64,000 nucleotides of DNA, taken from assembly GCF_000062885.1 (NCBI RefSeq), contig NC_009142.1:2965584-3029583 (forward strand). Direction: 5' to 3'. A model generated the notes under the pieces. It searched no databases and had not been told where the DNA came from. It saw only the letters and a program-made list of their open reading frames with translations. The position numbers and the translations under genes were made by a program. The stretch comes from Saccharopolyspora erythraea NRRL 2338 (GTDB taxonomy: Bacteria; Actinomycetota; Actinomycetes; Mycobacteriales; Pseudonocardiaceae). Of the stretch, positions 10,000-12,635 are shown one piece after another. Each line of letters opens with the position of its first letter. Positions within the stretch are counted from its first letter, which is position 1.

Positions 10000-11796
10000 T
10001 CATTGCTGGATGTCGACGCTGGTGACGATGATGTCGCTCAGGTGGCGGTTGTAGGGGTCGTCGCTCTGGCGGCGCTTGGTGTCGATGACGTTGAGGCCCT
10101 CGTCGGAAATAGTGCCGAACACCGTGTCATCGTTCTCGTTGTCCTCGAATTGCACGGAGAAGTCCGGGTAGTAGGCGGAATGCATGACCAGGTATCCGCG
10201 GAGGGCCCGCAGCCCGGGAAGGCTCTCGTCAGCCGAGGTGTAGCCAGGGCTTTCGTCCCTGGCTCCCCGCGGGCCGCACGTGAGGAAGGGGACGTTGCCA
10301 CTGACGCAGCGGGCGTTGTCGTAGAAGCCCTGTTCGGCCAGGTGGACGAAGCTGTTGACCGTGCACGGGGCCAGCGATCGGTCCAGAATCGCCGGGATGG
10401 TGCCGATGTTGGTGTTGATACCGGCCCGCACTATGCCCTTCGCGGGAACCTCGCCGCTGGCCGGTGGCGTCACGGATCTGATCGGTTGCTTTCCGTCCGG
10501 CTGGTACTGGCACGTAACCGGGTCTGGTAGCGGAGTCGGCCGCGTTGGCGGAGCCACGAAGCCAGGGGGAATCTGCGTCTGCTGCTGCGCGGCGTCGCCG
10601 TTGGAGCCTCCGGGTCCGGGGAGCAGCGCCACCGCCGTGACCACCGTCGCGGCGGCCAGGCCGATCGCTGTGCTGATGAGGGCCGTCCGCCGGAACCTGG
10701 GCGACCACGCCTGTTGTTGGTCGCCGTCGCCCGCGCGGCGGTCGTGGTCGGGCAGGCTGGCAACCGCCGAGTCCGGTGTTCCTCCGTCGGGTGACTGGGG
10801 AGCGTCCACCGGCGGGGACGGACTCGCTGCGGTCTCGGCTCGTGCCAAAGTTGCTTGCGCGGCGGCGACGACGGAGCTGGCGTTGTCCTCGGTGAGCTTG
10901 GCCAGTGCGGTGCGGGCGGCTCGTGCCGCGCTGGCACTGTCCGAGTGCAGCAGCGTGGACAGCTCGCCGACGATCGCCAGGCGCACCGACGTAAGGGGAC
11001 TGCGCATGGCTTGGGCGACCTCGGGCGGGAGGTCGGTGGCGGCCGGGCTGGTGGCCACGATCAGGCGGCCCTGGAACCTGCTGTCCAGGCCCGGCGTCTG
11101 GGGTTTGCCCGCGGCTTCGACCTGTTCGTAGATGAAGTCGTAGAGCTCGTCCACGTCGATCAGGCCGTCGCCGTTGCGGTCGGCGCCACCGGAGCGCAGG
11201 CCCTCGACCAGAGCTCCGGTGAAGACCGACGGGCTGGCTGCTCCGACGAGCGTCGAGCTGGCCGATTCGCCTGCTTCGAAGGAGTACTCCAGCGCTGACG
11301 AGGACGTCATGACCGCGCTGCCGCGTCCGCCCAGTTGCGACAGGACGCCGGCGTTCTCCCCGGTGCGGTGGGTGGATCCGGGCGGGAACGCGCCGGCGAA
11401 GCAGCAGTCCAGGAGGACCACCACGCGGCGGGACCTGGTGTTGTCCATCTGGTTGCGCACGAACTGGGCGCTGACCGCGGTCGCGTTGAGCCGGTCGTGG
11501 CGGGAGTTGGTCATCGCCAGGTGCAGCCGGCCGTAGTCGTCCTTGATGCCGTGCCCGGAGATGTAGAGCAGGACCAGGTCGTCCAGCCACGCCGCCGCGA
11601 AGAGGTCTTCGATCGCCAGGTTCGCTTCGTGCGCGGGCGGGTTGTGCAGCGCGTCGACCTGGTATCCGCCGATGAGCGGGGCGGCGAGCACCGCGGCCAG
11701 CGCATCGGCGTCAGCGCGCGGCGTCCGCAGCTGTTGGAAGGTGGCGTCGGAATAGCTGTCGGTGGCGATGAGCAGTGCCCGGCGCTTTCCCGTCAA
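10000..11796 (-). CDS. Caspase-family protease fused to EF-hand, membrane anchor and cyclophilin domain
   Basis: A 598-aa multidomain protein. Residues 1-200 are a caspase-like (peptidase C14) domain with the catalytic pair His82 in YISGHG and Cys131 in VVLLDCCFAG. Residues 206-217 form a canonical EF-hand loop (DRNGDGLIDVDE). An alpha-helical alanine-rich stretch (255-325) and a Pro/Ser-rich linker follow. A membrane span is at 371-392, then a proline-rich extracytoplasmic spacer. Residues 455-597 form a cyclophilin-type peptidyl-prolyl isomerase domain with four cysteines. The protease should therefore face the cytoplasm and the isomerase the outside. The start is TTG, with GGGGTGG upstream. 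It is a single gene; no EAD or NTPase partner is adjacent. Caspases of multicellular actinobacteria are often tied to cell-death or conflict systems (family knowledge); a role here is inference. Confidence 0.88.
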   Translation of the reverse strand: MTGKRRALLIATDSYSDATFQQLRTPRADADALAAVLAAPLIGGYQVDALHNPPAHEANLAIEDLFAAAWLDDLVLLYISGHGIKDDYGRLHLAMTNSRHDRLNATAVSAQFVRNQMDNTRSRRVVVLLDCCFAGAFPPGSTHRTGENAGVLSQLGGRGSAVMTSSSALEYSFEAGESASSTLVGAASPSVFTGALVEGLRSGGADRNGDGLIDVDELYDFIYEQVEAAGKPQTPGLDSRFQGRLIVATSPAATDLPPEVAQAMRSPLTSVRLAIVGELSTLLHSDSASAARAARTALAKLTEDNASSVVAAAQATLARAETAASPSPPVDAPQSPDGGTPDSAVASLPDHDRRAGDGDQQQAWSPRFRRTALISTAIGLAAATVVTAVALLPGPGGSNGDAAQQQTQIPPGFVAPPTRPTPLPDPVTCQYQPDGKQPIRSVTPPASGEVPAKGIVRAGINTNIGTIPAILDRSLAPCTVNSFVHLAEQGFYDNARCVSGNVPFLTCGPRGARDESPGYTSADESLPGLRALRGYLVMHSAYYPDFSVQFEDNENDDTVFGTISDEGLNVIDTKRRQSDDPYNRHLSDIIVTSVDIQQ

Positions 11797-12047: not shown

Positions 12048-12420
12048 TCATTCCTCGGCCAGTGCCTGCATTCGAGCGACAGCGAATTCGATCACGGTCT
12101 GTACGGGGCGAGAGAGAACCGCGTTGCGTCGATGCACGATGGCGAAGGAGTCGTAGAGGCTGGGTTCGAGAGGGGCGCTGTAGAGGGGTGCGGGCAGCTT
12201 GCCTTGCTGCCGCCGCAGGATGCTGCGGGCGGTGATGGCGTCGGCGACGCCGAGCGCGGCGATTTCAAGGGCGGTTTCGACGTTCTCGACTTCGATGGCG
12301 GGCTGCAGGGTGCCGCCTGCTGACTGCACGGCTCGCTTGGTCCCGTCCGCAGGTTCGTTCAGGGCAGGAGCACCAGGGTCACGAGTTGCCACCAGGGAAA
12401 GACGACTGCGGGTTCGGTCG
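12048..12420 (-). pseudogene. LysR-type regulator, C-terminal remnant
   Basis: Minus-strand codons from about 12420 down to the stop at 12048 match the second half of a LysR effector-binding domain (LQPAIEVENVETALEIAALG, ITARSILRR, then PVQTVIEFAVARM). The helix-turn-helix half is missing, and upstream of about 12400 the frame turns into Arg/Pro-rich noise. It is a truncated, probably non-functional regulator. The 12420-12759 stretch holds no gene apart from a large inverted repeat. Confidence 0.65.
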
Positions 12421-12583
12421 CGATGCCGGCACCCGGCATGGGCTTTCCGGACAGCTTCAAAGTGTGGCGCTGGGAAGGCTGCGAGCCCTACCCGGCTTGC
12501 CAGTTCTTGGGGCAAGCTCGCGCTGGGGCGTAGGGGCACGTTGCGGTGGTCCCGGAAGCGGGGGAGTCGTGTCGTCGGCTGAA

Positions 12584-12635
12584 CTGGCGCCTGCCGGCGC
12601 GGTGGGGTGACCACCATCCGCGCGACAGGCGCCAG
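12584..12635. repeat. 52-bp interrupted inverted repeat
   Basis: CTGGCGCCTG (12584-12593) pairs with CAGGCGCCAG (12626-12635). Inside, GCGCGG pairs with CCGCGC and GGTGG with CCACC, leaving a small loop. This gives one long near-continuous hairpin. It does not directly follow a complete gene, so it may be a terminator of a lost gene, a mobile-element end or a cruciform site. Confidence 0.6.

Follow-up and report, generated by a model that had tools for sequence, protein, structure and literature searches.

Does a single polypeptide of the soil bacterium Saccharopolyspora erythraea NRRL 2338 connect a caspase-like protease inside the cell to a cyclophilin outside it, and what might such a protein do? 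The question is raised by one gene in the window, the stretch of 64,000 nucleotides that we analysed, for which a sequence-only reading had proposed a protease, an EF-hand, a membrane span and an extracytoplasmic peptidyl-prolyl isomerase in one frame. The gene and its parts, with coordinates given as positions in the window, are the following.

10000..11796, minus strand: whole gene, an open reading frame of 598 codons plus stop, with a TTG start
11077..11787, minus strand: caspase-fold protease domain, residues 4-240, family caspase_w_EACC1, recognised by Pfam, NCBIfam, Foldseek and a MALT1 profile match
11551..11553, minus strand: catalytic His82 (motif SGHG), assigned by homology
11401..11403, minus strand: catalytic Cys132 (motif LDCC, with Cys131 directly before it), assigned by homology from the alignment with LLDMC of MALT1
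11146..11181, minus strand: EF-hand-type loop DRNGDGLIDVDE, residues 206-217, flanked by two helices within the caspase domain
10831..11046, minus strand: helical HEAT-like linker, residues 251-322, from weak HEAT_2 matches and model helices
10624..10680, minus strand: single membrane helix, residues 373-391, predicted N-terminus in, from hydropathy and flanking charges
10003..10521, minus strand: extracytoplasmic pseudo-cyclophilin domain, residues 426-598
10276..10512, minus strand: span with the four conserved ectodomain cysteines 429, 478, 497 and 507

The proposed one-frame gene corresponded to an open reading frame at exactly these outer positions, encoding first the caspase-fold protease, then one membrane span and then a cyclophilin-fold ectodomain. 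A scan of genome contigs by exact peptide patterns, beyond which further orthologs may exist, identified two full-length orthologs with the same layout, in Saccharopolyspora sp. NFXS83 (L004, 62% identity) and S. kobensis (L005, 61% identity), as well as two cyanobacterial matches to the caspase half only. Since both Saccharopolyspora species share the fused frame, we dismissed a frameshift or joining artefact; a frameshift between the halves, which the earlier reading had named as the finding that would speak against it, is not indicated. The TTG start aligned with the ATG of the NFXS83 ortholog and lay at most two residues from the GTG picked for S. kobensis. A promoter and terminator scan gave a result close to that of shuffled sequence (no promoters; two terminator-like sites compared to a shuffle mean of 0.9, sd 0.9). 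We conclude that the gene is real, conserved and well delimited.

The N-terminal part was assigned to the caspases by several models. Peptidase_C14 matched residues 4-240 (E 3.6e-16, above the Pfam cut-off), the NCBIfam model caspase_w_EACC1 (NF047832) scored 173 bits against a curated cut-off of 140, and the PADLOC model 'caspase' matched at E 7.3e-9. His82 and the LDCC motif were invariant in all 12 aligned caspase members, the protein of the window included, and a PDB search with the profile of these 12 retrieved MALT1 (E 9.7e-10). Of the His82/Cys131 pair that had been proposed, the histidine and the caspase fold were borne out, while the nucleophile is to be placed at Cys132 because LDCC, by its second cysteine, aligned with the LLDMC of MALT1. 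By sequence and fold match, the protein carries the His/Cys motifs of peptidase family C14 in a caspase fold. Moreover, Asp29 and Asp130 aligned with two MALT1 residues, which we take to be Asp365 and Asp462 of its S1 pocket; this alignment mildly supports a predicted preference for a basic P1 residue, without amounting to proof. MALT1 was the closest solved-structure relative by profile and by fold and shares the His/Cys motifs and the two acidic residues; it differs in that the profile match spans only the first 129 profile positions, that we know of no membrane span in MALT1 and that its partner domains are not those of the fused protein.

Regarding the EF-hand, the predicted structure placed the loop at residues 206-217 between helices 191-202 and 215-228. 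The scoring pattern, which we take to be the PROSITE EF-hand pattern, was present in 20 of the 26 aligned family members, and in 17 of the 23 that remain without the fused protein and its two orthologs. Only 8 of 5000 shuffles of the fused protein matched the pattern anywhere, making a chance match unlikely. A canonical 12-residue loop between helices is therefore present, even though the Pfam EF-hand models, which matched residues 205-222, stayed below their cut-off (best EF-hand_5, 16.8 compared to 25.9 bits). Hence the canonical loop of the earlier reading stands and the separate, joined EF-hand domain does not: the loop is part of the caspase domain, and with its occurrence in 20 of 26 members it is a trait of this caspase family. 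Gating of the caspase by Ca2+ through this putative loop is possible. Caspase relatives with EF-hand motifs have been described among prokaryotic orthocaspases, namely in seven archaeal proteins; according to the available text of that work (PMC6426788), the EF-hand is there counted as an additional domain, whereas the loop described here sits inside the Peptidase_C14 match. It further notes that almost every bacterial metacaspase conserves an Asp located at the beginning of p10, a residue with a demonstrated role in the Ca2+ binding of type III metacaspases of eukaryotes (PMC6426788).

Between the caspase and the ectodomain, HEAT_2 matched below its cut-off in two of the proteins (P0003, E 0.0058; P0002, E 0.22), and the one membrane span that had been proposed was recovered as helix 373-391, the sole hydrophobic helix of the protein (mean hydropathy 2.13). 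Because Arg residues precede this helix and neither Arg nor Lys follows it until residue 419, the N-terminus is predicted to be inside, which supports the suggested placement of the caspase in the cytoplasm and of the cyclophilin fold outside.

The ectodomain was recognised by Pro_isomerase at residues 460-594 (E 5.4e-7, above the Pfam cut-off). In a full-length scan the three fused proteins reached 30.4 bits (the protein of the window), 26.0 bits (NFXS83) and 19.1 bits (S. kobensis) for a cut-off of 21.7, and all three ectodomains matched the cyclophilin fold family (PF00160) at E 0.01. Structure prediction pointed in the same direction at low confidence. The full-length model, built from four sequences, had a mean pLDDT of 59, with caspase blocks mostly at 50-83 (loops within residues 131-190 down to 35, the EF region at 72-79), the linker 324-426 below 50, and ectodomain blocks mostly at 54-83 (residues 511-530 at 38). 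A Foldseek comparison of this model with the PDB placed MALT1 first and returned cyclophilins separately from rank 32 on, with a probability of 1.00, so that the cyclophilin fold expected from structure prediction did appear. We relied on the full-length model because the ectodomain folded alone gave a weak one (pLDDT 50.6; best match a cyclophilin, E 2.1e-3).

The fold was kept, but the isomerase site was not. The equivalents of Arg55, Gln63 and Gln111, presumably the active-site residues in human CypA numbering, were absent from all three fused copies and present in all 25 rows of free-standing cyclophilins, a subset of the whole-genome hits that includes the short forms L009 and L014. Phe113, an alignment-dependent column, was found in 25 of 25 free rows and in one of three fused copies (S. 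kobensis). The stretch between the third and fourth cysteines, which in the free rows spans 12 or 13 residues and carries an Arg and an LQ motif, was reduced to 9 or 10 residues with neither Arg nor LQ motif in the fused copies, and the active-site loops were shortened and dissimilar among the three. In contrast, the cysteines were retained: the fused protein has exactly six (131, 132, 429, 478, 497 and 507), with six at matching places in both orthologs, and the four of the ectodomain occur in all three fused copies (the fourth of NFXS83 being out of column in the residue table and aligned in the ortholog alignment) and in 24 to 25 of the 25 free rows. These four probably form two disulfides of an extracytoplasmic fold. 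Judged by its residues, the ectodomain is a dead cyclophilin that lost its isomerase site and retained its fold; the cyclophilin outside the membrane that had been suggested is there, and its isomerase activity is dismissed on the missing residues. We conclude that the protein is not a machine combining calcium, EF-hand and isomerase.

The closest counterparts of this ectodomain are actinobacterial free-standing cyclophilins, mostly membrane-anchored, with the same four cysteines (for example L020, L021 and, in the own genome, L013), which differ in keeping the three active-site residues, in all 25 rows examined, and in lacking a caspase in the matched frames. Identity was 47% for L020 and 49% for L021, and in L028 and L013 the cyclophilin visibly follows a membrane helix, as in the fused gene. 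Because several free-standing forms align from residues 358-373 onward, starting with the membrane helix or ahead of it, the fusion appears to have taken up an entire membrane cyclophilin. Three other cyclophilins of the own genome scored 85-154 bits, compared to 34 for the fused one. At L030 and L041, free-standing cyclophilin genes occur as tandem pairs.

The fusion was seen in three species only, those named above. Whole-genome searches gave an end-to-end match to the window gene alone, in 1 of 60 relatives and 1 of 118 genomes of the class, and the S. kobensis protein, searched at E 1e-50, likewise matched end to end only the window gene, in 1 of 100 family genomes; these 60-, 100- and 118-genome sets overlap and include the own genome, with at most 22, 14 and 11 candidates scored per genome. 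One other same-genus genome had no ortholog of the fused gene. Three caspases matched beyond the membrane helix (G015 to residue 447, G140 to 445, G208 to 428), and Pfam detected no cyclophilin in the first two; the remaining whole-genome hits listed were caspase-half or cyclophilin-half matches. Phages gave no match to the fused protein, none of 45 pattern-matching stretches in viral contigs was confirmed (the patterns came from the caspase part only), and none of 45 matching plasmid records covered 80% of the query, the 20 listed all lying in the caspase half. Among the open-access papers listed, no title or abstract opening described a caspase-cyclophilin fusion or a caspase of S. erythraea. 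A third caspase homologue of the own genome (G000:C1:6929196-6929510; L012, ORF 736-1839 minus) has the His half only, the Cys half being missing, and by eye runs into an FtsK-type ATPase-like segment.

The family assignment places the protein near the EACC1-caspase 'System 4' of Kaur et al. 2020, which pairs an EACC1 gene on the 5' side with a caspase gene on the 3' side; the C-terminal domains of the caspase are of up to 50 kinds, EACC1 is proposed to be a membrane sensor, and some members have TM helices and an extracellular periplasmic-binding domain (PMC7159879). Inactive enzyme domains of several conflict systems were there proposed to be decoys; the words cyclophilin, prolyl, EF-hand, calcium, GroEL and peptidyl are absent from the main text, while its source-data tables or figures may list such members (PMC7159879). 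The fused protein resembles that system (NF047832) in its caspase subfamily, the N-terminal caspase with an exchangeable C-terminal part, and the membrane association; it differs in having a pseudo-cyclophilin as its C-terminal part, and no EACC1 gene was found directly 5' of it. The five ORFs upstream held no EACC1 match (limit E 10, with filters that drop most matches above about 0.1), and the sole PF19953 hit of the own genome at a limit of E 0.001 lay at 2490868, adjoining another caspase. No conserved partner gene was found among the scanned neighbours, which vary among the three species, in keeping with the earlier statement that partner genes are not adjacent. Among 16 above-cut-off caspases in 41 genomes, nine had a same-strand 5' EACC1, one a divergent EACC1 and six, including that of the window, none nearby. 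As for other close caspases, a same-strand EACC1 accompanied those of G075, G106 and G117 and a divergent one that of G029:C5, while those of G034, G077, G080 (two) and G108 had none nearby. We also considered a TM helix as a general stand-in for EACC1 and dismissed it, given that EACC1-bearing relatives have TM helices and some relatives without EACC1 have none.

Several further loci were noted along the way. The own-genome EACC1-caspase pair (L100, G000:C1:2490868-2494919) has a caspase joined to a superfamily-1 helicase-type AAA domain, with an EF loop that fails the pattern. At L109 and L110, EACC1 and caspase matches share one frame, of 831 and 810 codons respectively, so that the two genes appear to be fused. 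Upstream of the fused gene, at window positions 12048-12617 on the minus strand, a LysR substrate-binding domain is represented by its C-terminal part alone, apparently the remnant of a gene.

The three fused genes grouped as one clade in the caspase tree (100/99), next to the gene of G007 (96/92), whose EACC1 is divergent. The ectodomain tree paired S. erythraea and NFXS83 (93/83, not starred) and left S. kobensis apart on a very long branch of unsure placement; the case for a single origin of the ectodomains is thus made by the caspase tree together with the common layout. The simplest reading is that EACC1 was lost and a membrane ectodomain gained in Saccharopolyspora, the four label changes on the tree being undirected.

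We propose that the gene is a membrane-tethered, one-gene form of the EACC1-caspase conflict system of actinobacteria, with the dead cyclophilin as sensor or bait, an interpretation that we regard as about evenly balanced between right and wrong. An N-terminal caspase with its HEAT-like linker would have been fused, within Saccharopolyspora, to an entire cyclophilin with its membrane anchor, which cyclophilin would then have lost its isomerase site and kept its fold and four cysteines. Outside the membrane, the dead cyclophilin would bind a protein or peptide ligand, as sensor or bait, and this binding would cluster the fused protein. The clustered caspases, possibly needing Ca2+ at the EF loop, would cleave cytoplasmic targets after basic residues, and this cleavage would stop or kill the cell. 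A role of the fused protein in outside-to-inside signalling is plausible.

The evolutionary rates of the two halves bear on this proposal and on the alternative that survives best, namely that the ectodomain is in decay under relaxed selection and that the fusion supplied only an anchor for a caspase that works without the cyclophilin. Among the three orthologs the caspase was 80-87% identical and the ectodomain 39-44%; tree end branches were 0.86, 1.76 and 4.82 for the fused ectodomains and 0.10-0.19 for the caspase parts. In the three pairs the caspase had Nei-Gojobori dN/dS values of 0.24, 0.23 and 0.25, and the ectodomain had values of 0.98, 0.98 and 0.78 (1.07, 0.93 and 0.89 in columns away from gaps), which indicates that the protease is kept while the outside surface changes fast. 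The HEAT-like linker was intermediate and loosely held (0.78, 0.53 and 0.49), and two free-standing paralogues, compared between the own and a same-genus genome, gave 0.20 (0.00-1.24) and 0.19 (0.06-0.49) from few changes. Within the ectodomain, the C-terminal half, which formerly held the active site, was least constrained (1.15, 1.18 and 0.88; away from gaps 1.62 with an interval of 0.89-3.32, 1.18 and 1.18), bearing in mind that alignment error in this variable half can inflate the ratio. Every ectodomain interval included 1, and values near 1 are equally compatible with a relaxation of constraint and with a binding surface that changes quickly. Together with the shortened, dissimilar active-site loops and the S. 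kobensis ectodomain, the one of three to fall below the Pfam cut-off, these values are what decay would produce. On the other hand, the four cysteines, the N-terminal cyclophilin core and the open frame were kept in three species, the Pfam family was still found in each ectodomain, and the N-terminal half had lower ratios (0.72, 0.69 and 0.64), though with intervals that reach 1. On balance we lean against decay, while considering it a possibility to be taken seriously.

A second alternative to the sensor or bait proposal is autoproteolytic release, in which the caspase would cut its own chain and free the membrane-ectodomain piece as effector. Such release has been proposed as a general model for EACC1 systems in the available text of PMC7159879, and the long linker between caspase and ectodomain (residues 324-426), predicted with low confidence, would leave room for it. 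Against this, it is hard to see how a dead isomerase would act as an effector outside the membrane, and the linker 323-370 is too variable (28-44% identity in 18-35 aligned columns) for a conserved cleavage site to stand out. We therefore consider release improbable. A functional membrane isomerase coupled to the protease, for which the above-cut-off Pro_isomerase match in S. erythraea could be cited, is very hard to reconcile with the loss of all three active-site residues in every fused copy. That two adjoining genes were joined by chance or artefact has no supporting point that we found and a virtually negligible probability, given the frame and layout shared by both orthologs and the caspase dN/dS of 0.24 across species.

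Other folding factors joined to caspases suggest a broader version of the sensor or bait proposal. A protein-folding domain was present in 6 of 30 distinct Pfam-scanned caspases, a non-random sample gathered by similarity to the fused protein or the family model, which gives no background rate and leaves out L103, L107 (two proteins), L109, L110, L113, L114, L120 and L127 as well as L073, L074, L083, L089 and others. The six comprised the three cyclophilin fusions, which are probably one event, two DnaJ_C fusions (L019, 1495-2937 plus; L123, 808-2388 minus) from genomes of different families, and one Cpn60 fusion (L104, 2369-4660 minus) from another genus. The GroEL-like domain of the latter has changed ATPase motifs: compared to bacterial GroEL, GDGTTT became GDGAAT, and the Asp of R-x-E-D-A, presumably ATPase residue 398, became Arg. 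In the DnaJ fusions Pfam detected no J domain; the zinc-binding motif repeats of L019 appear intact by eye, so that a rule by which all folding-factor parts are dead does not fit. A small ORF before the L123 gene (2231-2635 minus) looks EACC1-like by eye. Among the other scanned caspases some carried helicase, kinase, FtsK, nSTAND or WD40 parts, and in the rest Pfam detected no additional domain; L122 (1387-3084 plus) is a fusion of a caspase with a protein kinase domain.

Plant immune receptors carry integrated decoys, and by analogy this caspase family might bear degraded folding factors as baits, such that an invader or stress engaging the real factor would trigger the caspase, an idea that we consider unlikely. 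It takes the decoy proposal of PMC7159879 further, to folding factors and to the outer side of the membrane. If true, it would explain part of the C-terminal variety of EACC1-type systems and name candidate triggers. The gene itself is a compact and testable example both of a bacterial caspase whose own chain reaches the cell exterior and of an enzyme that has given up catalysis and now probably acts as a sensor or bait.
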